A stretch of 64,000 bases of DNA from positions 1 through 64,000 of the forward strand of contig JADLFV010000011.1 of assembly GCA_020849625.1 (NCBI GenBank). The letters are read 5' to 3'. Of the stretch, positions 15,210 to 28,102 are shown piece after piece. Under the pieces are notes generated by a model, which had not been told where the DNA came from, made no database searches, and saw only the letters and a program-made list of their open reading frames with translations. This DNA is from Phycisphaeraceae bacterium (GTDB lineage: Bacteria > Planctomycetota > Phycisphaerae > Phycisphaerales > Phycisphaeraceae). The stretch's first letter is position 1, and every line of letters starts with the position of its first letter. Made by a program: the position numbers and the translations under genes.

Positions 15210-15351
15210 CCGTTTCACAGGCGGCCAGGCCATGGCTAAGCCCTGATCAGCAAAAAGTTTAGCGGCCGACTTGAGCCCCACTTGCTTCGAGCCGACAATC
15301 CGTTAAGCTTTTGTGCTCGGCTGACCGACATGGTTGATCGAGCGACAATTT

Positions 15352-15424
15352 TCCCCGATAGCTCAATCGGTAGAGCGGCTGACTGTTAATCAGTAGGTTC
15401 CTGGTTCAAGTCCAGGTCGGGGAG
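15352..15424 (+). tRNA. tRNA-Asn (GTT)
   Basis: A canonical 73-nt cloverleaf: acceptor TCCCCGA/TCGGGGA, D arm GCTC/GAGC, anticodon stem GCTGA/TCAGT with loop CTGTTAA (anticodon GTT), T arm CCTGG/CCAGG, discriminator G. CCA is not encoded. The DNA directly 3' of the tRNA is duplicated about 3.5 kb downstream, together with a degenerate tRNA 3' half, marking this as an integration site. Confidence 0.95.
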
Positions 15425-15676
15425 TCAAACGGGTTTTCTCGAAAGAGAGAGCCCAATTCCGTTAACGGCCACGCTGCGGGCGGGTGTGCCGCGTGGTTGC
15501 GGTAAGGCGTTGCCCGCAAACGGTTACGGCGATTCCGCCGGAGCGGGCGGCGCTCTCGGTTCGTAGCCGTGACGTTCGGGGTCCGACCGTAACCCCACAG
15601 GTTGCGCTCGAACCCCGAATGAAGGCGTCTCGAACTCTCGCGCTCTCTCGTTAATATCGCCCATTAGTTAACGGGC
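15422..15676 (+). repeat. Left tRNA-Asn flanking repeat (noncoding)
   Basis: 15422-15449 (GAGTCAAACGGGTTTTCTCG onward) matches 18912-18940 with a single one-base indel. It can fold as a 10-bp stem with a GAAA loop but lacks a T-run. 15509-15676 aligns without gaps to 19001-19168 (same length of 168; 122 identical by hand count, about 73%). Conserved blocks include GCAAACGGTTACG, TCGGTTCGTAGCCG and an AACC/GGTT stem closed by CGA/TCG. No open reading frame is convincing between 15425 and 15732. Confidence 0.8.
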
Positions 15677-15732: not shown

Positions 15733-16056
15733 ATGACGTTGGACGAATCAGTCATACAGAAGATCGTCGAGCGCGTTCTGTCGGTCACGCAGCCCGACAA
15801 GATTATCCTCTTCGGCTCGGCGGCTACGGACCGGATGACGCGAGACAGCGACATCGACCTGCTGATCGTCGAGCCTGACACCAGCGATCAGCGGCAGGAA
15901 TATGTCCGCATCGTTAAAGCGCTGTGGGATGTTGATTGCCCATTTGATATTCTGTTCATCAACACGCAATGGTTCGAGCAGAGCAAAGATGTGATCGGCG
16001 GTATCGCCCATCCCGCCCACAAGTATGGGAAGGTGATCTATGACGCCGCCGCCTGA
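15733..16056 (+). CDS. MNT-type nucleotidyltransferase (antitoxin of HEPN-MNT pair)
   Basis: A minimal nucleotidyltransferase of 107 residues with the signature GSAATDRMTRDSDIDLLIVE (GSx9DxD) and a later Asp in CPFDILFIN. GGAGG at 15722-15726 supports the ATG. In HEPN-MNT systems this enzyme AMPylates or otherwise blocks a HEPN RNase; that role is inferred from family and pairing. It overlaps the HEPN gene by 17 bases. Confidence 0.85.
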   Translation: MTLDESVIQKIVERVLSVTQPDKIILFGSAATDRMTRDSDIDLLIVEPDTSDQRQEYVRIVKALWDVDCPFDILFINTQWFEQSKDVIGGIAHPAHKYGKVIYDAAA

Positions 16057-16471
16057 GGATGCTAAGCTGCGCATTATTCACGAGTGGCGGCGCAAGGCCG
16101 ACGACGATCTGGCTGTCGCGGAACGCTTGTTGGCTGACGACGCCGATTCGTTCAGCAATGCCATCACGTTCCACTGCCAACAGGCGGCGGAGAAATACCT
16201 CAAATCGCTGTTGACCTGTTGGGACATCGAGTTTCCCAAAACGCACATGCTGGCCAGGTTGATCGCACTCGTCGAGCAACGCGATGCCGCGTTAGCTTCG
16301 TCATTGATGGATGCCGTCGGCCTGACCCCCTACGGCGTGGAACTGCGCTACCCCGGTGACCGCCCCGATGCTTCAGCGGACGATGCACGCGAGGCAATAC
16401 GACTCACACAACAGATCTGCAATGCAATCGTGCCCCTGCTGTCCAGGGCATCAGGTGACGACAAGTCATAA
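16040..16471 (+). CDS. HEPN domain protein (toxin candidate)
   Basis: The helical 143-residue protein has the HEPN signature AITFHCQQAAEKYLKSLL and a later ELRYPGDRPDAS, typical of HEPN partners of MNT proteins. The canonical RX4-6H RNase motif is not obvious, so activity may differ from the RNase toxins. The 17-base overlap with the MNT gene shows coupled translation. Such pairs often populate defence islands, which fits the position downstream of a tRNA. Confidence 0.83.
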   Translation: MTPPPEDAKLRIIHEWRRKADDDLAVAERLLADDADSFSNAITFHCQQAAEKYLKSLLTCWDIEFPKTHMLARLIALVEQRDAALASSLMDAVGLTPYGVELRYPGDRPDASADDAREAIRLTQQICNAIVPLLSRASGDDKS

Positions 16472-16537: not shown

Positions 16538-17059
16538 ATGGATGACCAATTGCACGAAATGATGGCTGAGGTGCCCGGTGCTTTCGCTAACCGTTTCAAT
16601 GAACTTGTGGAGCTGACCGATGTGTTCTGCGCGGCTCACCTCAATGACGAGTACAAGGAACTCTGCCGGGACATGGCCATCGCCATCTGCCAGAAGGGTT
16701 CGCCGGTTCGCCAAGGCAAACCACAAGGCTGGGCGGCGGGGATCGTGTACGCGCTCGGCCGCGTCAATTTCCTGACCGATCCCAGCCAAAACCCACACAT
16801 GAAATCCAAGGAGATCGCCGAGAACTTCGGCGTGTCGATGGCCACAATGCAGGCAAAATACAAGGTCATCTGGGATGGCCTGGACCTCATGCAGATGCAC
16901 CCCGACTGGTCATTGCCGAGCCGGCTTGACAACAATCCCCTGGTCTGGATGTTGAAAGTGAACGGATTCATCATGGACATCCGTGACGTTCCGCGCGAAG
17001 CACAAGTTGTGGCATATGAGCAGGGCCTGATTCCCTACATTCCTGCGGACCAATCATGA
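16538..17059 (+). CDS. DUF6398-like protein
   Basis: A 173-residue protein with WAAGIVYALGRVNFLTDPSQ followed by an HTH-like segment (MKSKEIAENFGVSMATMQAK), the pattern I associate with DUF6398. The N-terminal 60 residues are helical (ANRFNELVELTDVFCAAHL). Molecular function is unknown. It overlaps the next gene by ATGA and shares the island with HEPN/MNT and a recombinase, so it is probably half of a two-gene accessory module. Confidence 0.65.
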   Translation: MDDQLHEMMAEVPGAFANRFNELVELTDVFCAAHLNDEYKELCRDMAIAICQKGSPVRQGKPQGWAAGIVYALGRVNFLTDPSQNPHMKSKEIAENFGVSMATMQAKYKVIWDGLDLMQMHPDWSLPSRLDNNPLVWMLKVNGFIMDIRDVPREAQVVAYEQGLIPYIPADQS

Positions 17060-17559
17060 TCTTCCGCCTGTCACAGCGCTTGAACACCAAGATCAAAGCC
17101 GGAACCTTGCCAGCCGCACCGCTTGATGACAATCCGTATGCCGACTGGTCGGCTCGGCTGTTCACAGCCGATCGAACTCAGTACATCCTGCTCAGTCAGA
17201 CCTCGTCGCTCTATTCGGTCGTGATGTTTGGTCGAGGGATCACACATGACTGGCTGTTCATCGAGCGCGCCTTGGAGAACCTCCGTGAGTTCATGAATGA
17301 CGACGGCCTGAGCCTGATCTATATGAACTTCATTGCGCCCGCCTCGGCGTCGGTGCGGTTCTGCAAGGCTCTCGATCGCTCCGTCACCGGCTCAATAAAT
17401 GAACTGGAGGCCACAGCCAAGCTCTACCTGGGGACCGGTGAGTGGTCGCCCTTCGATGTAGGATTCAAACTCAACGAGACGTTGCTCTCTGCGATTGCTG
17501 CCAAAGAGGTCGATAACTACGCCACACCGCGCGAGGCGTTCAAATGTCTGGGGGGCTAG
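17056..17559 (+). CDS. DUF6933-like protein
   Basis: A 167-residue protein with a DUF6933-like pattern: NPYADWSARLFTADRTQYIL, then a central helical part, then ALDRSVTGSINELEATAKLY. Function is unknown. It starts inside the upstream stop (ATGA) and ends 16 bases into the recombinase gene, so three genes are tightly packed. Its coupling to a DUF6398-like protein suggests an interacting pair, possibly toxin-antitoxin or defence; this is inference. Confidence 0.65.
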   Translation: MIFRLSQRLNTKIKAGTLPAAPLDDNPYADWSARLFTADRTQYILLSQTSSLYSVVMFGRGITHDWLFIERALENLREFMNDDGLSLIYMNFIAPASASVRFCKALDRSVTGSINELEATAKLYLGTGEWSPFDVGFKLNETLLSAIAAKEVDNYATPREAFKCLGG

Positions 17560-18866
17560 TCGTTGTGTCGGCGCGTCAGTCGGTAATTCGCTATGCGATC
17601 TACACGCGCCAGTCGGTGGACAGGCTTATGGATTTCTCGTCCTGGCAGGCACAGTTCATGACGTGCCGAGACTTCGCCCACGCGACCGGCGAGCCGGATT
17701 TGCGCTGGTGCGGACGGCATTTTGAGGACGAGGGCCAATCCGGCGACACGCTCCAGCGACCTGCCATGTGTGAACTGCGCGAATTGATTCGCCGTGGCGG
17801 CATTGATCGGCTCTACGCAGTGGAGTTGGACCGGCTCAGCCGACGTATGCGTGATGCCGTTGTGCTGCTCGACGAATTGGACTACGCCGGTGTCGAGCTG
17901 CGGCTTGTCCATCAGGCAGATTTAACCACTGGCCCACAATGCCGATTCCTGCGGCACGTGCTCGCCGCCTTCGCTGAGTTCGAGCACGAGATGATCGCCA
18001 CGCGTCTGGCCGAGACCCGCGCCTACCTCAAGAGACACGGCCGACGCCTCGCGGGCAAGGTGCCCTACGGCTATGAGGCCAACCCAGATACCCGGCAACT
18101 CGTTCCCAACGCTATCGAGGCACGATGCGTTCGCACAATCTTCGAGCTCGCCGCCAATGGTGAACTGCCCAGCCGCATCGCCCAAACCATCAACGACCAA
18201 GGCTGGCGCACCAAGGTCTACCATTCCAAGCGCTCAGGAAAAACCACTGGCGGCGGTCCCTAGACCGCACGCCAAATCATCGACACCCTTCGCTACCCCG
18301 TGTACCTCGGTCGTATTGCCGACGGCCGCAACGTGCGCGTTGGCTGTCACGACGCCATCGTCAACCAAGCGACGTTCGATGCCACACAGCGGCAACTCAA
18401 TTCCCGCCGCACGAATAGCCGACGCCGACGCGTGAATCATGACAATTTTACGTTCCGGCAAAAAATCGTTTGTCCCCGTTGCGGGCGATTTCTCAACACC
18501 TACCAGATCACCAAACGACACAGCCTCGGTGCAGAAATTGCCTACTGCTACTACCGCTGCCGCTCCACCGCTGGCGGCCTCCCGCCCTGCCAAGGCGTCC
18601 AGTATGGTGCCTGGGACATCGAAGAAGGCATCCGCTTTTTGCTCAACGAGCACGAAACCTGGCGGACCTTGCTCGGTCCACAGGCCTCCGACCAGTCGAT
18701 TCGACAAGCCATGGATACCTGGCGCGTCCTCCTGTGGCAGTGGCAGCATACATGGCTGCGAAATTCCGTGGAACGAATCGAGATCAACGAGGACCGCAGC
18801 ACGATCGCCGTCACCTTCTCCTCAGACGCCGGAGCCGCATTTTTGCCCGAAAACGGCTGTTTCTAA
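17544..18866 (+). pseudogene. Serine recombinase with in-frame amber codon
   Basis: The first 239 codons encode a resolvase/invertase catalytic domain (IRYAIYTRQSVDRLMDFSS with the nucleophile Ser; AVELDRLSRRMRDAVVLLDE) and the start of the Recombinase domain. TAG at 18261-18263 interrupts the frame. The same frame then continues 201 codons through TARQIIDTLRYPVYLGRI, a zinc-ribbon (CPRCGRF...CYYRC...PPCQG) and a helical C-terminus. Family members usually have Trp at the stop position (PWT), so TGG to TAG is the likely lesion. Both halves are otherwise intact. It is the probable mobility gene of the tRNA-Asn element. Confidence 0.85.
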
Positions 18867-19349: not shown

Positions 19350-22313
19350 TTAGAGCCTAGCGGAATGCTGATCTGTTGTCTGTCCGAACTCCTGAAACAT
19401 TTTACGCAGTCGATCAAAGTCCCAGAGTTCTATCCGATGCTCGCGTGCAACACGTTCTGCGTCGTCCGAGAACGTGGACGTGGTGGCTATAATCGTTCGG
19501 GTTGCGGCATGTCTGGCGGCCGCTCCTGCCAGTTCATCCACTACTGCCCGTCCCACCGGTTGCGTTTCCCACTTTTTGCACTGTATCAACACCTTCTCGT
19601 TTTCACGTCGCGCAAACACGTCAATCCCATCGTCGTTGGTCGCTTGGGTGGCATGCGCTTCGTATCCCATCAGGCACAGCAGTCGAGCGATTTCGAACTC
19701 GAACTGCCGGGCGTCAGTTTGAGTTACTCGATGTCGTATCTCCTTCTCTCGTATGTCGCGTGCGTGTCCCAGGTCCTTAAGCTGCCGAAGCAAGTATTCA
19801 GGCGCACACATATCCGCCGCGTGCAGACGCGGTATGATTCGTTCTGCTAGTCTTGTGGCCGCCTCTAGATCATTGGCCGCAAGAAACTCCGCGAGTTTCG
19901 GAACCTGAGTCTCCACCCAATGGGCGGTCTTGACGGCTTCAGCATTGAGAGCTTTCGAGGTCGCTTCAGCTGTAGCCGCCGCAGCCACGAGAGCCTGGTA
20001 GTCGATGGAGGGAGGTAGACTGAAGTCAAGGTTGGCGAAAACCGAATGGTGTATTGTCGTCAGTATGCGATCGTCTTGCATCTGCAGTTGCAGAAGCCGG
20101 CCCTCATCCGCCTTGCGCCCAGTGAGCCACCAAACTATTTTCTCACCCAAGCTCAATGTTGGCCATGCAGCGCGAGCCGAGCAATACCCCTCGTGAACTC
20201 TGGCCTGCTCCTTCATCTGGGTATCTTTCGCCGTCCTCTCTGCCTCCCCGTATGCCGATTTGGCCAACTCAAACTCCGACAGATGCTCATGTACCGAACC
20301 GAGGAGAAACTTTGCTTCACCCAGTTCCTCGTCCGTGACCCACCTGTGCAGGACCTTGTCCAGTTCCAACCTTGCGTCGCTGAATCGGCGTTCGGCAACG
20401 AGTGCCCGGGCAAGGAGAATAGAAGACCTGGCAGCCTGAGACGAAAATGGGTATTTACTGATTGCCTCCCTAAGCAGACTTATTGCATTTGTGAAGTTTC
20501 TTTGTCGTATAAATTCTTCCCCTTTAGATGCCAACAACTTCGCGTCGCTTTCGTAGGAACTCTTCAACTGCTGCAATTCTTTGGCCGCCAGCGGTCGATG
20601 CAATCCCCAAAGCCATCGTTCCTGAATGATTGACCAGGACGATGTCGGGGTCTTTACAACGAATTGCCCAGTATTGAGGGTGGGAAGATAACGTCTGGCG
20701 GATTCAAACTCATACTCCGCCTCTGCCGCTCCTTGTTCGATCTTGGAGCGGTCTCGTTTGGTACGAAGTTGCCCCACCATCCATGTCCCACAGTTGCTGA
20801 GTCCCTTATAGTCAATATCACCTGGATTCTGCGTGGCAAATACACAGCAGACACCCTTGGCTCGTCCCTGGCGCAACAGGAGATTCAAGGCGGGTTTTGA
20901 AGAAGAAATGGCGACGCTTGGGAAAAAGGCGCTCTTGCCACCGCCGCCGCCAATCTCGTCAATAAAAAACAGCAGGCGAGGGTCGTATGTACCCTCCAAT
21001 CGTCGCATCCAGAACCAGATCAGATAGGCGACGTATCCAACAACATAGGCTTGATCTTTGAATTCCAGGTGAGACAGATTGATCACGGATATGGGCGTCC
21101 GGTCACCGGCGTATGACGGTGCAAGTAGAGTGTCGATGCTGATGGGCCAGCCCTCGTACATGCTCCGGCCCGCACCCGTGAGTAAACCATTAACTGCATT
21201 GGCTATATGCTCTCGATCCTTCTCTTTAATGTATTCGTCTCTAGGCATGCCACCAATCTGGGTGATGTCGAGTTCGGGGGCTCTGATTTCGTCTAGAACA
21301 AGCTGGACGCCGTCGTATCCATGCATCGACATACCACGAGCAAAACATGTCTTGATTATTTCAAAGACGTATCCTTTGGCTTTTTCGCCGAGGTTTCTGT
21401 TGACGGAAAGGCGTGCAACGAACTGTCCTGCAAGGAAGTCGATCAGTGACATATAGGCGTCAGGATCGCTAACCTTCATTTCCTCCAGGTTGTCAGGTGG
21501 TTCGGGAAAGGCGGACAGGGCTAGGCGAAAACCGTCATTAGAGCGAGGAGTGAATATATTCACGCCAATACGTTTCTTGGCTTGTTCTATGTCCCGTGTC
21601 GTGAATCCCCACTTGCTCAGGTTGCGCTTGTGTTCTTCGGCGCGGTCAGCCGCGACTTCTTCGATGGACCGTCCTCGGAGCGGCGCCACCCAGGGGATGA
21701 AATCTTCCGGGTCTTCACCGGACATCATCAGAGCCAAAGCCGAAATATCACCCTTTAAGTCGATTGCTATGGCAGGGATTTGTTTCAGTGCGGCCTCCTC
21801 CACCAGGGCTTTCGCAAGCACGGTCTTGCCTGAACCTGTAACGCCACAGATGAACACATGGGTGAGGAGATCCGTTTCTTCCATCACAAATGGTTGATCC
21901 GTGGCTACAAGTTCATTGAAATGATCTTCGAGACGTCTGCCCAGGTACAGTCCTTGATCGGGCCGAGACAAAGGAGCGCCAGTATCTTCCATTGATGGTG
22001 GTTCCGTGGACGGCTCTATCTGCAGGAGCAACGGTAGACGAGCACTCACTTTGATGCAAAAAGACCTATGATCCTCATGACTGATTGTCCTGAGCCATGG
22101 GCCAAGACCATCAAGCGTTCGTGCGGTTACGTCCAGGACAACGGGAAACTCCCGGTTGTCATGTGTTCGCGCGCGCCCTTGCACGGTGGTCTCTCCCTGG
22201 AATTCAGTCACGAGCGATCGAGAGACCCTCAGAAGCCCACTGGGGCCACACACGGGTGATATATGGTACTTTTTATTCTGTTCGCTCACAGACCTATTTC
22301 CGTCGTATTCCAA
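19350..22313 (-). CDS. HerA-like ATPase fused to TPR and Mrr-type nuclease domains
   Basis: Domains in order: an N-terminal beta-rich region (1-125); a HerA/FtsK-type motor with Walker A GVTGSGKT (157-164), DLKGD, Walker B RLLFFIDEIGG and a sensor-like CVFATQNPG; TPR-like helices around 590-720 (NFTNAISLLREAISKYPFSS); and an Mrr-type PD-(D/E)XK nuclease around 864-965 with the E in QFEFEIARLL, the D of DDGIDVFA and the QxK of VLIQCKKW. All catalytic residues look intact. TTG 22313 overlaps the upstream gene by 20 bases; GTG 22289 is an alternative. Probable role: ATP-driven DNA translocation coupled to cleavage in defence. I do not know a named system with this fusion. Confidence 0.85.
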   Translation of the reverse strand: MEYDGNRSVSEQNKKYHISPVCGPSGLLRVSRSLVTEFQGETTVQGRARTHDNREFPVVLDVTARTLDGLGPWLRTISHEDHRSFCIKVSARLPLLLQIEPSTEPPSMEDTGAPLSRPDQGLYLGRRLEDHFNELVATDQPFVMEETDLLTHVFICGVTGSGKTVLAKALVEEAALKQIPAIAIDLKGDISALALMMSGEDPEDFIPWVAPLRGRSIEEVAADRAEEHKRNLSKWGFTTRDIEQAKKRIGVNIFTPRSNDGFRLALSAFPEPPDNLEEMKVSDPDAYMSLIDFLAGQFVARLSVNRNLGEKAKGYVFEIIKTCFARGMSMHGYDGVQLVLDEIRAPELDITQIGGMPRDEYIKEKDREHIANAVNGLLTGAGRSMYEGWPISIDTLLAPSYAGDRTPISVINLSHLEFKDQAYVVGYVAYLIWFWMRRLEGTYDPRLLFFIDEIGGGGGKSAFFPSVAISSSKPALNLLLRQGRAKGVCCVFATQNPGDIDYKGLSNCGTWMVGQLRTKRDRSKIEQGAAEAEYEFESARRYLPTLNTGQFVVKTPTSSWSIIQERWLWGLHRPLAAKELQQLKSSYESDAKLLASKGEEFIRQRNFTNAISLLREAISKYPFSSQAARSSILLARALVAERRFSDARLELDKVLHRWVTDEELGEAKFLLGSVHEHLSEFELAKSAYGEAERTAKDTQMKEQARVHEGYCSARAAWPTLSLGEKIVWWLTGRKADEGRLLQLQMQDDRILTTIHHSVFANLDFSLPPSIDYQALVAAAATAEATSKALNAEAVKTAHWVETQVPKLAEFLAANDLEAATRLAERIIPRLHAADMCAPEYLLRQLKDLGHARDIREKEIRHRVTQTDARQFEFEIARLLCLMGYEAHATQATNDDGIDVFARRENEKVLIQCKKWETQPVGRAVVDELAGAAARHAATRTIIATTSTFSDDAERVAREHRIELWDFDRLRKMFQEFGQTTDQHSARL

Positions 22314-24183
22314 ATACTACCCACATCAACAAACGCCTGCAGTAACGCCAGAATCGTTCAACTCGGCCGCGTCTCACCTTTCGCTTCTTATGGGATGGCG
22401 ATATGTCAGGCTTACCAGCAGGTGCATTTGAGTCATTGTTCACCGCTGTGGTCGCCAGAAGTTGAGGCGATTCGAGTAACACGAGATCAGTCGATTGCAT
22501 TGGTTCTTTGTCGGCATCCTTAGCGCCGGCTTCGTCAGCATCCGGCGCGTGAGTTAGTGGTTGGGCCGTGACAGGAGGGACGAACCACTCCTCCAATGCG
22601 AAGTTTCCATTGGACAACCTCCTAAGGCGAGGGTCATGCACGTCCAGAAATCCAGTGCGACTTAGGGCATGCCAGTCAACGCCCGACCACTCAGCTATAT
22701 TCATACAGATTTGATCAAAACTCATGTCCCTACGCGTTCTTTGCAGTAGCTTATAGACGATGTCATTCTTCTCAATTTCCTCCACGATGCCCCAAATTCT
22801 TTGCCAATCGACGGGTCTATCGTCGGCGAGTGGCCTTGGAAGGCCCTCAATGCGAGGTACACGTAAGCGTCTCTGATCCACCGGCAGCAGGATCCATTGG
22901 CCCCGATTAACGTGTTGGAACAGCACCTCCCGATACTTTGAAAGCACGCCGATCACGGAACCGACCTGCAAGTCCCGGTGTTTGGATATCTGTGCGTAGA
23001 GTTCGCGATAGTGCATGGGGCGGTCGCCCTCGTGAAGCACCCGTAGAAGGCAATCGCGAATCGACAAGTCCCTCCACCTGAAGTCCTCCGGCGGACACCT
23101 AAACACGTAGTTCTCGTGTTTCTCCCACTCCGTCCATATCTCGATCATGGTCGTGGCATCGTCAGCAAGTCGAATCTTCATTTGATCGCCCGGCTCGATC
23201 GCGTTGATGCGATACCATTCGGCCATTCCGGCTAAATATCCCGTTTCTCCATCGAATTGCAGGATTTCCTGCCAGTCACGTCTAAATTGAACTGTAACTC
23301 GCCGGGAATACGCTAGGAAGCAGCGAAGTCTTGAAGGCAATCTTAACCTACCTGCATTGATTTGTGGTAAATCAGCGGTACGTAAGAAGAGAGTGCCAAC
23401 GGGGATTTCGGGTTCAGGACTTGGCCGGGCGGGGATGGTCGGCTCTGGCGAGAGGGACGGGCATGGCGGAACAACAATATCTAACTGCGCAATGGGTGAT
23501 GGCAGAGCGATTGCCGATGGTCGTGGCTCCCGTGGTAATTGAACGCCCGGTCTTGGGGGGCGCGGTTGTCTTGCTTGGACAATTATTTCTGCCTGTTCCT
23601 TGAGGAATCGGCTCCTGTCCGCAGGCAAATCCTGAAGACTTGCTTTGGAATGTTTATCCCAGATATGCGCCAAGAGAGTTTCGCAGTTTGCAAAAGTCTT
23701 CTGACAACCGGCAGAGCACTGCCAGATTTCGATCTCCGCTTCGTTGCGGTGATACGCGGCTATCAATTGCTGATCTGATGAAACGAAAAATGTGATAGGT
23801 CGCGGTACAACTCGCGGATGTTCAGGAAGGTCTTTTTCAAGATGTAGTGTGATGTCAGTGTAAGCCGACGTGTAGCCTCCCGTGCTGACCGCATAATGGT
23901 CGTGGGGGCAAATGTAAATCTGCTGGGCACCCTCTTCAACATGATGCAAGGTGACTGCCTTTTTCCCAATTGCCGCTAACTTCTCAGCATGGACCTGCCT
24001 GACATGCTCATACCAAACGTGTTTTCCTTCGAACACTTCATGACAATATGGACAAGATCGCAACCGCTGCAAGGTGACGGACACCAAAGCATCGACACTG
24101 GAGACACCGGGTTGTGTCTGCATGATCAGGAGTATTTCATCATTGGATAGCAATGCAGCCTTCCCAAGTCGACACAGCCACAC
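22294..24183 (-). CDS. C2H2 zinc-finger and HARE-HTH-like DNA-binding protein
   Basis: Two C2H2-type fingers are visible: C44-C47-H60-H65 (CPYCHEVFEGKHVWYEHVRQ) and C156-C160-H173-H178 (CSAGCQKTFANCETLLAHIW). A Pro-rich linker lies around 205-275. Around 400-460 there is a HARE-HTH-like winged helix (LLRVLHEGDRPMHYRELYAQ, ending RGQWILLP), and the C-terminus is Lys/Arg-rich. GTG 24183 or ATG 24123 may be the start. It precedes and overlaps the HerA-Mrr gene, so the pair forms a coupled operon. The likely role is target recognition or regulation for the nuclease; this is inferred. Confidence 0.75.
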   Translation of the reverse strand: MWLCRLGKAALLSNDEILLIMQTQPGVSSVDALVSVTLQRLRSCPYCHEVFEGKHVWYEHVRQVHAEKLAAIGKKAVTLHHVEEGAQQIYICPHDHYAVSTGGYTSAYTDITLHLEKDLPEHPRVVPRPITFFVSSDQQLIAAYHRNEAEIEIWQCSAGCQKTFANCETLLAHIWDKHSKASLQDLPADRSRFLKEQAEIIVQARQPRPPRPGVQLPREPRPSAIALPSPIAQLDIVVPPCPSLSPEPTIPARPSPEPEIPVGTLFLRTADLPQINAGRLRLPSRLRCFLAYSRRVTVQFRRDWQEILQFDGETGYLAGMAEWYRINAIEPGDQMKIRLADDATTMIEIWTEWEKHENYVFRCPPEDFRWRDLSIRDCLLRVLHEGDRPMHYRELYAQISKHRDLQVGSVIGVLSKYREVLFQHVNRGQWILLPVDQRRLRVPRIEGLPRPLADDRPVDWQRIWGIVEEIEKNDIVYKLLQRTRRDMSFDQICMNIAEWSGVDWHALSRTGFLDVHDPRLRRLSNGNFALEEWFVPPVTAQPLTHAPDADEAGAKDADKEPMQSTDLVLLESPQLLATTAVNNDSNAPAGKPDISPSHKKRKVRRGRVERFWRYCRRLLMWVVFGIRRK

Positions 24184-24710: not shown

Positions 24711-25226
24711 ATGGCAGACCAACTGAACATCGCACGCGAAGTCGCCACCCTGAAACGGATGACCGTCAAGGACCTGCGCGGCCGGTACACCGGCACACCG
24801 ATGCGGATTGCAGGTTGGCGCTACCCGGTGGTCGTCGATCTGGCGGGCATGAGTATTCCCTCGCAGAAACGTCCCATCCGCTTCAGCCACGACCCCGGAA
24901 GTGGGGTCGGTCACACCGACAGTATCCGCATCGACAGCGGAACGCTGGTGGCGACAGGCTTGATCTCGCGCGATACCCCCATCGCCCGCGAGGTGGTCGT
25001 CTCCTCGAAGAACGGCTTTCCGTGGCAGGCGTCGATCGGCAGCAGCGTGGATGAGTACGAGTTCATCAAGGAAGGCCAGACGGTCTCAGTCAATGGCCAA
25101 ACCTTCAAAGGCCCGTTGAACGTGGTGCGTAAGGCCACGTTGGGCGAAATCAGTTTTGTGGACCTCGGGGCCGACGGCCAGACCAGTGTTCGCGTGGCCG
25201 CCGCACATCCCCCCGGAAGATCATGA
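24711..25226 (+). CDS. Chimeric protein: DUF2924-like N-terminus joined to HK97-type prohead protease
   Basis: GGAG precedes the ATG. The first 27 residues (NIAREVATLKRMTVKDLRGR) look like the start of a DUF2924 protein. From about residue 30 the sequence changes to a phage prohead-protease-like domain (IRFSHDP, SIGSSVDEYEF, and ATLGEISFVDLGADGQTS, the S78-type catalytic end). The protease lacks its own N-terminus. The frame is open through the junction, so the fusion is translatable, but it most likely records a deletion between two mobile elements rather than a designed fusion. Confidence 0.6.
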   Translation: MADQLNIAREVATLKRMTVKDLRGRYTGTPMRIAGWRYPVVVDLAGMSIPSQKRPIRFSHDPGSGVGHTDSIRIDSGTLVATGLISRDTPIAREVVVSSKNGFPWQASIGSSVDEYEFIKEGQTVSVNGQTFKGPLNVVRKATLGEISFVDLGADGQTSVRVAAAHPPGRS

Positions 25227-25812
25227 GGACGAATTCAAGCGGCAAGTGGCCTTGTCGTGTGTCACACCCACCGCTGCCGATCACCAAGCACGCTTTGTCG
25301 TCCTTCTCGAACCTCTCCCTTCCGGGGGCATCGGCCGGGCTGTGGTCGATGGTGTGACCATCGCCAAGGTCAATGTCAGCACCGGTCAGGAGCAGTGGGC
25401 TGACGTGGCCGATGGTCAGACAGATTATTTACAGGCCGGTGGCGCCGGTTCAGCCCGCATCCTGTGGCTCAATGACAACAGCGGTGTGTCCTGGGCCATC
25501 GTGCAACTGGGCGCTGGCGCCGGGGGCGCTTTCCCCGTCGTGCTGCAGCAGGATGGCGGCGGGCCCGGCGACGGATCGCATGCCTGTGACTACACCTACA
25601 CCATCACGGATTTAGCCAGCGGAACCGAGTTGGCTACCGACATCGATCCCACCATCGCTCCCCACCGCTACAAGCGGCCACCGATCGGTGCCCGCATCGC
25701 CGCCACGGCGGGCCTCGCCTACTGGGTGCTCAACGCCGGTCAGGTCGTCGCGGCCATCTACTGGTGCAACGAGGCGCTGGACCTTGATCCCTGCGACCCG
25801 GAGGCTGAGTAA
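25222..25812 (+). pseudogene. Phage-cluster hypothetical protein, 5' end missing
   Basis: The frame has no convincing start. It opens inside the end of the preceding protease gene and continues with FVVLLEPLPSGGIGRAVVDG, a Gly-rich middle and LAYWVLNAGQVVAAIYWC. The pattern looks like phage-associated planctomycete hypotheticals I have seen beside capsid-type genes; this is recognition by type only. The missing 5' end and abrupt upstream junction suggest a deletion remnant. Confidence 0.45.
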
Positions 25813-25813
25813 C

Positions 25814-25894
25814 GTGCTCCAAGTCAACCTCAAAACCGGGCGCGCGATCTGTGGCGGCCCCGCAGCTTGTCACAGCATGTTGTTCGGGATCTGA
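25814..25894 (+). pseudogene. 26-codon 5' stub of another phage-cluster gene
   Basis: GTG follows the previous stop by one base, and the frame reads LQVNLKTGRAICGGPAACHS before a stop at 25894. The short tightly spaced frame looks like the 5' end of a further phage-type gene cut off next to the transposase element at 25998. Confidence 0.3.
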
Positions 25895-25997
25895 GCGGTA
25901 ATTTGCATGTGCTGATGGCGTGCGATTCAAGACGATGGCGCAGGAACACCGTCTTGCTCTTTGGCAATCGGAGACTTTTATCAAGTTGTCTGTGGAT

Positions 25998-27245
25998 TCA
26001 TGCAGCTTGTCGCAGCTGCACGTGGATGTCGATGATAGGCAGGCAAGGATCACCTCGGCATGCGTATCGGGCAATGTCGAAATCAGCGTGATGCCGGTCG
26101 CGCTGACGAATTGGAATGGGCGTTTCAACGGGACCGTGATGAGCTGCTTCGTTTGGCGTCATCGCACTGAGGGCGGCGTGAACACGGTGGGCATTGTACC
26201 ACCCTCGGAAGTTGTCAAGCTTTCTTTGTATGCCATCAGCGGTGAGGCGTGGCAGGATGAATCGCCACCACAAACGTAGCGATCGAAACAGCCGCTCAAT
26301 CTTGCCGTTCAGAAATGGCTGTCCTACGCGACCTCGGACATGATGGATGTCGAGATCCTTCATTGCTGTGCCGAAGCGCTTGCGAAATTGCTGGCCGTGA
26401 TCGGTGATCAAGAAGCGTGGCTTGCCGTCGGATTGCATGGTTCGCTTGACGAGTTCAATCATCTGATCCGCCCGCGGCACTCGATGGAACACATGCAGCA
26501 CCAGCAACCGTCTTGTGCAGCCATCGAGAACCGCCGCAATCGTGAAACGCAGCCACAGCACACGAAAAGTCGTCAGGTCCAAATGCCACACCCTGTTCGG
26601 AGCAGCAGGTTTCAGCAGATGATGCGGTTCGATCCCTGCGGCAATCATGGGCGGACGGCGTCGGGGTTTCCTCGACTTGGGCTCGCGCAAGATACGCTGC
26701 ACGCTCGTGCGGCTGATCTGAACACCAGCACGAACAAGGTGTCTGGCGATCGTGCGCGTGCCGAACTCGGGCTCGGGGCAAAGCCTTCGCAGCTCATGTA
26801 CGGCCCAGCGTACCACGTCGTCAATTCTGTTCCATACAATCGCAGGCGTGAGCAACCTGTCGTTGCCGCGCCCTTCAACCGCTTTGATCCAGGCGCGGAC
26901 GGTATTGGGATGGAGCACGAACCGTTTGGCGACGATAGCCACGCTCCAATCCCGCAACCTCATTAACTGGAGGATCGCCAGCCGGTGCTCAGGCGTGTAG
27001 TCCGGCCGACGGTGGGGCGGCATCGCCTCGCGTTGACCGCGCCCAATTTCAAGCTCCCGACGCAGAAATTGATTTTCCATTATGGCCTGATCCCGCTCGG
27101 CCATCATCCGCAACACGGGCGAGTTCGCTGAGGCGAGGCGAATCCTTGCCAATTGCAGGGCTTGACTCAGAATGACGGCAACCGAGTCGACAATCTTCAG
27201 TGCCGTGAGGTTTGACAGCAGCGGCATAGGCATCTTCCCCTCCAC
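25998..27245 (-). mobile_element. DDE transposase/integrase-core (rve) gene
   Basis: A 415-residue protein with an N-terminal HTH (SVAIVAKRFVLHPNTVRAWI) and an rve catalytic core: D in WHLDLTTFRV, D in FLITDHGQQF and E in NGKIERLFRSLRLWW. The C-terminus PNEAAHHGPVETP is typical of stand-alone integrase-core transposases. The frame is intact with all three acidic residues. Terminal inverted repeats could not be defined by eye. It sits immediately after a truncated phage gene, so its arrival may have caused that truncation. Confidence 0.8.
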
Positions 27246-27388
27246 CAGGAAATGCCCATTTTATCGTCGTTCTTTTGCGGAATCGCGTCATCTGTGATTT
27301 CGATAATAGTGGCTTTTGCCACCGCCAAAGTACATCGCAAGCTGCTGGCCCACCTGGGGCAGCTTAGGCTCCCGGGCCATTATAGGCC

Positions 27389-27416
27389 TTGACGAATATA
27401 GCCGATGGGTTATAAT
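27389..27416 (+). promoter_or_regulatory. Strong promoter of the HigBA-like operon
   Basis: TTGACG (27389-27394) and a perfect TATAAT (27411-27416) are separated by 16 bases. The predicted transcription start at about 27423 coincides with the GTG start codon of the toxin gene. Confidence 0.75.
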
Positions 27417-27422
27417 ACTTCG

Positions 27423-27779
27423 GTGTGGGAAATCGAGTTTACGGACGAATTCGAGGCCTGGTGGGACACACTCACCGAGTCGCAGCAGGAAGCTTTGGAC
27501 GCCGGTGTCAGGCTTTTGGAGCGGCTGGGACCGCAACTGCCTCGTCCGTACACCGACACCGTGAAAGGTTCGCGGCACCGCCACATGAAGGAGCTACGCA
27601 CGCAGTGCCAGGGACGACCGCTGCGAACGCTTTTCGCATTCGACCCTCGCCGCACGGCGATCCTGTTGATCGGCGGCGACAAGACGGGCGACGATCGGTT
27701 TTATGAGCGGATGGTACCGCTGGCCGACAGGCTCTATGACGCCCATTTGCGGCAACTGACCGAGGAAGGATTGATCTGA
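27423..27779 (+). CDS. RelE/HigB-type toxin
   Basis: A 118-residue product beginning WEIEFTDEFEAWWDTL and containing KGSRHRHMKELRTQ, PLRTLFAFDPRRTAILLIGG and DKTGDDRFYERM, typical of phage Gp49/HigB-like mRNA interferases. GTG 27423 is chosen over ATG 27405 because the latter lies upstream of the -10 box. The mRNA is therefore predicted to be leaderless. The gene is toxin-first, as in HigBA, and overlaps the antitoxin start by one base. Confidence 0.85.
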   Translation: MWEIEFTDEFEAWWDTLTESQQEALDAGVRLLERLGPQLPRPYTDTVKGSRHRHMKELRTQCQGRPLRTLFAFDPRRTAILLIGGDKTGDDRFYERMVPLADRLYDAHLRQLTEEGLI

Positions 27780-28102
27780 TGGCCCGGAAGTTCAAAACGC
27801 TGCGTAATCGCATGTCACCGGAACGTCAGGCCCGGTCCGAGGCGATGGCACGCAAGATGATGGCGGACATGCTGCTGGCGGAGATTCGCAAACAGACCGG
27901 GCTTACCCAGGTCGATCTCGCCCAGCGACTGGGCATCACCCAGCCGAGCCTCTCCAAGCTCGAAGCGCAGGACGACATGCAGATCAGCACGCTGCGGCGG
28001 ATCGTCGAAGCGCTCGACGGCGAGCTCGAGCTGACCGCGAAGCTGCCAGGTGGCAAGCGGGTCAGCATTAGTCAGTTCGCTGAGCAAAAGCGGTCGGCCT
28101 GA
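27779..28102 (+). CDS. XRE-family antitoxin (HigA-like)
   Basis: A 107-residue protein with a central helix-turn-helix (GLTQVDLAQRLGITQPSLSK, then LRRIVEALDGELELTAKLPG). It starts inside the toxin stop (TGATG) and should neutralise the toxin and repress the operon through DNA near the -35/-10. The C-terminal extension VSISQFAEQK is short. Pairing and gene order identify it as the antitoxin. Confidence 0.85.
   Translation: MARKFKTLRNRMSPERQARSEAMARKMMADMLLAEIRKQTGLTQVDLAQRLGITQPSLSKLEAQDDMQISTLRRIVEALDGELELTAKLPGGKRVSISQFAEQKRSA

Follow-up and report, generated by a model that had tools for sequence, protein, structure and literature searches.

The first 64,000 nucleotides of contig JADLFV010000011.1 from a Phycisphaeraceae bacterium (assembly GCA_020849625.1), hereafter the window, carry a two-gene cassette that is probably a rare, unnamed restriction system of a recently predicted type. 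One product, P0001, joins a HerA-type DNA pump to an Mrr-type nuclease, and the other, P0002, is a candidate DNA-recognition partner; together, we give them a probability of roughly 0.6 of acting as a two-component, ATP-dependent anti-invader restriction system. This reading draws on domain content, catalytic motifs, conserved pairing across the family, foreign origin and the defence genes that adjoin relatives, while defence as such, the choice of target and the formation of a complex that moves and cuts DNA are predicted from sequence and models. ORF (open reading frame) calls returned two frames exactly where a preliminary description of this DNA had placed them; they overlap by 20 bp on the minus strand. 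The features of the cassette are as follows:

19350..22313, minus strand: P0001, motor-effector protein, ORF of 987 aa with a TTG start
22011..22289, minus strand: B3-like N-terminal domain of P0001, residues 9-101 approximately (A3 alignment, profile match, model)
20559..21950, minus strand: predicted HerA-type hexameric DNA-pump ATPase core, P0001 residues 122-585 (Pfam HerA_C and DUF87, structure matches)
21822..21845, minus strand: Walker A motif GVTGSGKT, P0001 residues 157-164
20952..20975, minus strand: Walker B motif LLFFIDEIG, P0001 residues 447-455 approximately
20202..20540, minus strand: TPR-like repeats, P0001 residues 592-704 (YfiO, 29.2 bits for a cut-off of 25)
19398..19721, minus strand: Mrr-type PD-(D/E)XK nuclease, P0001 residues 865-972 (Mrr_cat, E 9e-27)
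22294..24183, minus strand: P0002, putative DNA-recognition partner, ORF of 629 aa with a GTG start
23989..24054, minus strand: C2H2 finger 1, P0002 residues 44-65, CPYCHEVFEGKHVWYEHVRQVH
23650..23718, minus strand: C2H2 finger 2, P0002 residues 156-178, CSAGCQKTFANCETLLAHIWDKH
23119..23406, minus strand: B3-like DNA-binding domain, P0002 residues 260-355 (AlphaFold2, AF2, model compared with the PDB)
22879..23070, minus strand: winged helix 1, P0002 residues 372-435 (secondary structure of the model, VIA matches to winged helix-turn-helix, wHTH, chains)
22579..22806, minus strand: winged helix 2 of the HARE-HTH/RNA polymerase (RNAP) delta type, P0002 residues 460-535 (model and profiles)
22303..22374, minus strand: C-terminal basic/hydrophobic helix, P0002 residues 604-627 (model)

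From its N-terminus, P0001 comprises a B3-like domain, the HerA ATPase core, TPR-like repeats and the Mrr nuclease. Both HerA_C and DUF87 exceed their Pfam cut-offs, and the AF2 model (predicted local distance difference test, pLDDT, 70.6 overall and about 90 in the core) matches SsoHerA of Sulfolobus (VIA Z 29.0 over 328 residues), TkoHerA-NurA (28.0), the SIR2-HerA and DUF4297-HerA defence complexes (about 25-28) and the DndH C-domain (25.2). By its Walker motifs and modelled fold, P0001 is a HerA-type ATPase, for which a hexamer and translocation are predicted. The TPR_16 and TPR_19 models stay under their Pfam cut-offs in the repeat region, whose assignment comes from YfiO. At the C-terminus, Mrr_cat reaches 93.9 bits (cut-off 21) and the catalytic set is complete (E874, D898, Q911 and K913), so that the domain is, by sequence, an Mrr nuclease; the earlier reading of P0001 as a HerA ATPase with TPRs and an intact Mrr domain was thereby upheld. 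When a 77-residue segment of the core was run against 84,980 species genomes, 80 loci containing relatives of the motor were obtained. The beta-rich N-terminal domain, modelled over residues 11-100 with a pLDDT of mostly 64-89, is common to the HerA proteins of loci L079, L083 and L086 and, more distantly, L081 (A3 alignment). When the N-terminus of the P0001 family was compared with the B3 region of P0002, the hhalign score was 35.9, and none of 30 column-shuffled controls scored above 14.3; by this profile comparison the two regions are homologous, and B3-like domains are thus present on both subunits.

In P0002, both finger segments match C-X2/3-C-X3-F-X5-[LW]-X2-H-X4-H in full and score just 19.4 and 19.5 bits, under the Pfam cut-off. 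None of 20,000 shuffles of the sequence had two such motifs and a single one had one; the protein carries two C2H2 motifs, as previously described, with zinc binding predicted. Residues 260-355 resemble the B3 domain of Arabidopsis VAL1 (VIA Z 10.6, root-mean-square deviation 2.3, 91 residues), followed by the recognition domains of the restriction enzymes LlaJI.R1 (8.6), BfiI (7.7), NgoAVII (6.8) and EcoRII-N (6.7). The HARE-HTH-like domain of the preliminary description was confirmed: winged helix 2 matches RNAP delta in fold (VIA Z 7.8) and in profile searches, and the L086 partner, a homologue of P0002, exceeds the Pfam cut-off for HARE-HTH (E 5e-9). In P0002, a weak HARE-HTH match, under the cut-off (E 0.0085), occurs at residues 374-401, within winged helix 1. 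That P0002 has a second winged helix, and that both proteins have B3-like domains, had not been mentioned before. The C-terminal helix sits where the partners in other genomes have transmembrane segments. At no position in it is the hydropathy cut-off reached, as it is in the L081, L079 and L086 partners, where strong transmembrane segments lie at the C-terminus (L081) or inside a coiled coil (L079 and L086). This suggests that these relatives are membrane-anchored recognition subunits and that the feature has been lost or weakened in P0002.

The co-occurrence of both genes in other genomes, proposed earlier as a check, was found outside the window. A P0002 homologue directly precedes the HerA gene in 3/3 relatives with an upstream gene on the contig (L079, L081 and L086) and, with the window included, a HerA protein with a B3-like N-terminus is encoded directly after a B3 plus HARE-type partner at all four loci where the upstream gene is resolved. 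The L081 partner (433 aa) and the L079 partner (769 aa) overlap the HerA gene by 4 bp and 23 bp, respectively, and a gap of 24 bp separates the L086 partner (770 aa) from it. P0002 and the L081 partner are related at a BLASTP E of 1e-14, and the profile built from these two aligns with that of the L079 and L086 partners (hhalign 98%, E 1.7e-13) over 200 columns that take in the two winged helices and the last part of the B3 domain. Homologous partners turned up solely as neighbours of HerA relatives. Two genomes with a group A HerA (G397 and G398, see below) yielded no member of the partner family, and when 138 genomes from each of two phyla were searched, only the seed genomes had one; P0002 searched alone retrieved no relative, either with 8-mer patterns (the 84,980 species genomes and IMG/VR) or with tblastn (392 genomes of the window's phylum, plasmids and phages). 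As judged from these comparisons, the P0001-P0002 pair is a conserved two-gene unit that exists also outside the window.

Some HerA-like relative of the P0001 core occurs in 74 of the 392 genomes of the window's phylum; nearly all are 30-38% identical to it, and most are about 800-870 aa long and devoid of Mrr. In a tree of 29 rows, P0001 clusters on a long branch (bootstrap 82; Shimodaira-Hasegawa-like approximate likelihood ratio test, SH-aLRT, 86) with group B, which comprises L079, L081, L083, L084, L086 and, by tree position, L080, the closest row being L084 (45% identity). The P0001-type N-terminal region is found in every group B motor except L080, the start of which is cut off, and the shared N-terminal domain and partner gene are evidence for this grouping that is independent of the tree. 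Two other assignments were rejected: P0001 is separated by the tree from the HerA-like ATPase of ca. 820 aa that is widespread in Planctomycetota, and HerA proteins carrying FHA (L034 and L050) are only 27-28% identical to it in the A2 alignment. The latter two, from the same phylum, are HerA-like ATPases that end in a C-terminal FHA domain. Homologues occurring alone in housekeeping contexts, an objection anticipated in the preliminary description, were met only within the distant ATPase group common in the phylum, from which the tree sets P0001 apart.

Group B relatives are scattered across bacterial and archaeal phyla. For HerA proteins at the level of group B, searches of three seed phyla (198, 287 and 115 genomes) retrieved nothing but the seed, as did a search of a fourth (198 genomes) apart from one group A protein; in the window's own order (121 genomes), the window alone had one. 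Neither P0001 nor its alignments retrieved anything from viral contigs, and the pair was without a match in 72,556 plasmids and 50,697 phages, where only short ATPase or Mrr segments were hit. Group B is thus a small, rare clade, whose rarity and patchy spread over phyla fit horizontal transfer.

Within this clade, a Mrr or TPR tail occurs in the window motor only, and C2H2 motifs occur in P0002 only. Zinc fingers and the TPR-Mrr tail, earlier presented as hallmarks of the cassette, are therefore real in the window copy but private to it and do not define the family. The HerA protein of L079 has a DUF4145/HsdR-N-like (HEPN-like) domain in place of Mrr, and those of L081 and L086 are without a fused effector. 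The relatives adjoin defence genes: HsdM and HsdS at L086; AbiEi/AbiEii, a PDC-S11 candidate gene and a PD-(D/E)XK gene at L081; and a HKD-Snf2/DrmD-like helicase at L084. Behind the HerA gene of L083 (L083:1924-2664) lies a gene for a 246-aa protein that begins like a wHTH and contains the motif GTPDVIG...AEVK; by eye this protein resembles a wHTH plus PD-(D/E)XK nuclease, and it had no match in Pfam, PADLOC, NCBIfam or the PDB.

The cassette is probably foreign DNA acquired from another organism, because its GC content stands out (0.53 vs 0.61), as does its GC at third codon positions (0.54-0.56 vs about 0.75-0.84 in host-like genes nearby). The preliminary description had placed it beside a tRNA-Asn island with HEPN/MNT genes and a recombinase. 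The tRNA-Asn gene (15351-15426) and a HEPN/MNT toxin-antitoxin-like pair (15733-16471; Pfam HEPN and nucleotidyltransferase) are indeed present, as is a large serine recombinase, whose gene a frameshift has divided in two (frames 17544-18263 and 18300-18866). An attachment-site island, however, is not apparent, since the tRNA 3' end (14-24 nt) has no second copy anywhere in the window. The HEPN/MNT pair is followed by DUF6398 and DUF6933 genes (16538-17559), and the DUF6933 protein weakly matches the PADLOC candidate PDC-S63. The other flank (24711-28102) contains a prohead-protease fragment (Peptidase_S78), an insertion sequence (IS)-type integrase (rve) and a Gp49-like/HTH toxin-antitoxin pair.

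PADLOC 2.0 (2023), NCBIfam (June 2026) and Pfam hold no model for the pair, and no description of it was found in the openly available journal literature searched. The comparison with PADLOC suggested earlier showed that no named system is matched in full by either protein; the HerA_antiphage model gave 21 bits for a cut-off of 800 in the NCBIfam/PADLOC scans. The closest published concept is that of the 'HerA/FtsK capture systems' of Rakesh, Aravind and Krishnan (2024), which combine a HerA/FtsK pump with wHTH proteins and nucleases (PMC10853773) and of which a BREX-related form was described later (PMC12839542). Like these systems, DndFGH included, the cassette has the domains of a HerA/FtsK pump, a wHTH/DNA-binding protein and an endonuclease in one locus, and it shares with them a DNA-binding protein with several wHTHs, an active-type PD-(D/E)XK nuclease and a sparse, mobile distribution. 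The published classes contain an Orc/Cdc6 AAA+ protein or a D5 SF3 (superfamily 3) helicase, whereas the cassette has no Pfam match to either, and neither gene was seen among those scanned beside the relatives' pairs. It differs further in consisting of two genes, with a B3 plus HARE-type partner and a motor that starts with a B3-like domain and ends in TPR-Mrr. DndFGH itself requires DndF, the triple-wHTH DndG and a full-length DndH, while P0001 gave a partial DndH match of 10 bits and P0002 none. By its predicted domains, the cassette fits the HerA/FtsK capture theme, without the Orc/Cdc6 or D5 component and with B3 domains added. Two earlier claims have to be tempered accordingly. The fusion of motor and nuclease is real in P0001 but has precedents, since HerA-exonuclease fusions were already reported in some HerA/FtsK capture systems (PMC10853773). 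The cassette is also unnamed, foreign and flanked in relatives by defence genes, but 'new defence system' is too strong a term given that published concept (PMC10853773).

Other systems share fewer features. DUF4297-HerA, SIR2-HerA (Nezha) and NurA-HerA are likewise two-gene systems in which a partner accompanies a HerA ATPase with the ring fold, but in these systems the nuclease or NADase is a protein of its own, whereas the cassette has its nuclease on the HerA protein and, as partner, a putative DNA-recognition protein, in which no DUF4297, SIR2 or NurA domain was found with Pfam, PADLOC or NCBIfam. CglI/NgoAVII also divide a B3-like recognition domain, a nuclease and an ATP motor between two proteins (PMC5737866), but use a phospholipase D (PLD) nuclease and a superfamily 2 (SF2) helicase-like ATPase instead of Mrr and a HerA pump. 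Mrr and wH-Mrr-NTPase type IV enzymes join a Mrr PD-QXK domain, a winged helix (wH) and an NTPase (PMC11037411); their NTPase is McrB-like in the single case specified, whereas that of the cassette is HerA, with the winged helix on a separate protein. Membership in MADS was rejected, as P0001 partly matches mad8 (E 1e-11) and P0002 and the other scanned island proteins match no mad model. BREX-Related Capture (BRC) or another PglZ-based system was set aside, with no PglZ, DUF6079/BrxC or DUF4007 gene detected by Pfam among the island proteins scanned, and so was type I restriction-modification (R-M), with no HsdM or HsdS gene among them and these genes seen beside relative L086 only.

The second-closest motor clade, group A (L071-L074, L076-L078, L082 and L096), has HerA proteins of about 660 aa that are 38-40% identical to the P0001 core and are encoded by the last gene of an R-M-like defence operon, after genes for a protein of about 1080 aa, a HsdS-like protein, a PglZ-like protein and a N6-methyltransferase. 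In contrast to the cassette, group A is without a P0002-like partner (none in G397 or G398), an N-terminal B3-like region or a TPR-Mrr region, and has its own methyltransferase, being sequence-modifying. One contig of a Planctomycetota genome, which is both L033 and L076, carries a homologue that at 41% identity is closer than most in the phylum and is encoded directly after a N6-methyltransferase gene. The group A operon is spread over many phyla, mostly with 89-97% DNA identity between genomes of different families (L072, L074 and L096); its protein of about 1080 aa had no Pfam or PADLOC match, and a HerA component is not among the PglZ systems described in PMC12839542. Right behind the operon of L074 (L074:11008-18124) are LmuA/LmuB-like genes (Lamassu, ABC-3C CTD7), the last of which encodes a protein of 1787 aa that matches LmuB at the N-terminus only.

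In the proposed mechanism, P0002 would be the recognition subunit, its zinc fingers, B3-like domain and tandem winged helices binding DNA by sequence and/or base modification, and the B3-like domain of P0001 may dock onto DNA or onto P0002. The HerA ring would be loaded on double-stranded DNA and pump it using ATP, with the TPR arm positioning the Mrr PD-(D/E)XK domain, which would cut the captured DNA. No methyltransferase could be recognised in the ORFs of the island (15-29 kb), which argues against classical R-M and against a cognate methyl mark; self and non-self would therefore probably be told apart by invader DNA that is modified or distinctive in some other way (type IV-like) or by the state of the DNA, entering or replicating. 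The HARE-type winged helix, together with the missing local methyltransferase, hints only indirectly at modification-dependent, type IV-like cleavage: HARE-HTH domains have been proposed as readers of modified DNA, although the literature is divided between adenine and cytosine marks (PMC10853773, PMC11037411).

Restriction is supported by the best structure matches of the motor, which include HerA-NurA, the SIR2-HerA and DUF4297-HerA antiphage complexes and the DndH C-domain, and by the occurrence of B3-like domains as in restriction enzymes. Further support comes from the variable C-terminus (Mrr in the window, DUF4145/HsdR-N-like in L079, nothing in L081 and L086), the intact Walker A/B and Mrr residues, the conservation of the pair, the defence genes beside relatives and the patchy spread. 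Several points weigh on the other side. The upstream partner was seen in three relatives only, the contigs of L080, L083 and L084 ending just upstream of the HerA gene; the branch of the window copy is long, with moderate support for its clade (82/86); and its own defence-like neighbours are only the HEPN/MNT and Gp49-HTH pairs. A fused Mrr occurs in no relative, so that the coupling of pump and nuclease is represented by one protein, and the Mrr part of its model is unreliable, this region being absent from all other sequences in the alignment. The P0002 model is poor (mean pLDDT 47) except at about 260-355 and 460-530, and the evidence for the cassette consists of sequence and predicted models. 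More tentatively, and with doubt prevailing, the family might represent ATP-dependent restriction machines of a new class, with a HerA ring in place of the SF2 motor, B3-like readers on both subunits, an exchangeable C-terminal effector (Mrr, or HEPN-like in L079) and a reader that, membrane-anchored in most relatives, could intercept entering DNA.

The main rival is that the same complex protects through abortive infection: assembly would be triggered by a signal from the phage or by a DNA end, and Mrr would then degrade DNA indiscriminately, a mode proposed for DUF4297-HerA, with no site-specific restriction. The structural neighbours of the motor are abortive-infection complexes, and DUF4297-HerA, for instance, cuts dsDNA and acts through abortive infection (PMC11291478). 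We nevertheless regard this as unlikely, as domain types that read sequence (B3 and winged helix) occur on both subunits and point to selective recognition. The SIR2 and DUF4297 partners are not known to carry such domains.

There is a still smaller chance that P0001 is the translocase of a mobile element, serving the transfer, replication or segregation of that element like TraD- or CedB-type pumps. The surroundings of the cassette include a serine recombinase, an IS-type integrase and a prohead-protease fragment, the HerA core of P0001 is similar to coupling proteins, and HerA/FtsK modules with ties to mobile elements have been described (PMC10853773). However, no relaxase or mating-pair gene was recognised near the cassette, the recombinase is broken and the cassette lies on the opposite strand, the relatives adjoin R-M and abortive-infection genes rather than transfer genes, and the pair went unmatched in the plasmids and phages searched. 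A DNA-repair or end-processing machine like HerA-NurA is very improbable: HerA-NurA is among the closest fold matches, but the cassette is rare, absent from 120 other genomes of the order and foreign in composition, it has no NurA, and its recognition domains and the defence neighbours are unlike a housekeeping pathway. Least probable of all is an acquired cassette now silent or decaying, to which the split recombinase next to it and the non-ATG starts called for both genes could point, as two long, intact, overlapping frames (2.96 and 1.89 kb) have kept every catalytic motif.

If the restriction reading is true, the cassette would offer a minimal two-gene test object for the HerA/FtsK capture idea, with reader, pump and nuclease together, and the proposal that the pump feeds the nuclease would be open to test with two point mutants. 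A DNA-recognition fold of the B3-like type is found here joined to a HerA motor, in a modular family whose copies swap zinc fingers, membrane segments and Mrr or HEPN-like tails and which is covered by none of the libraries scanned.

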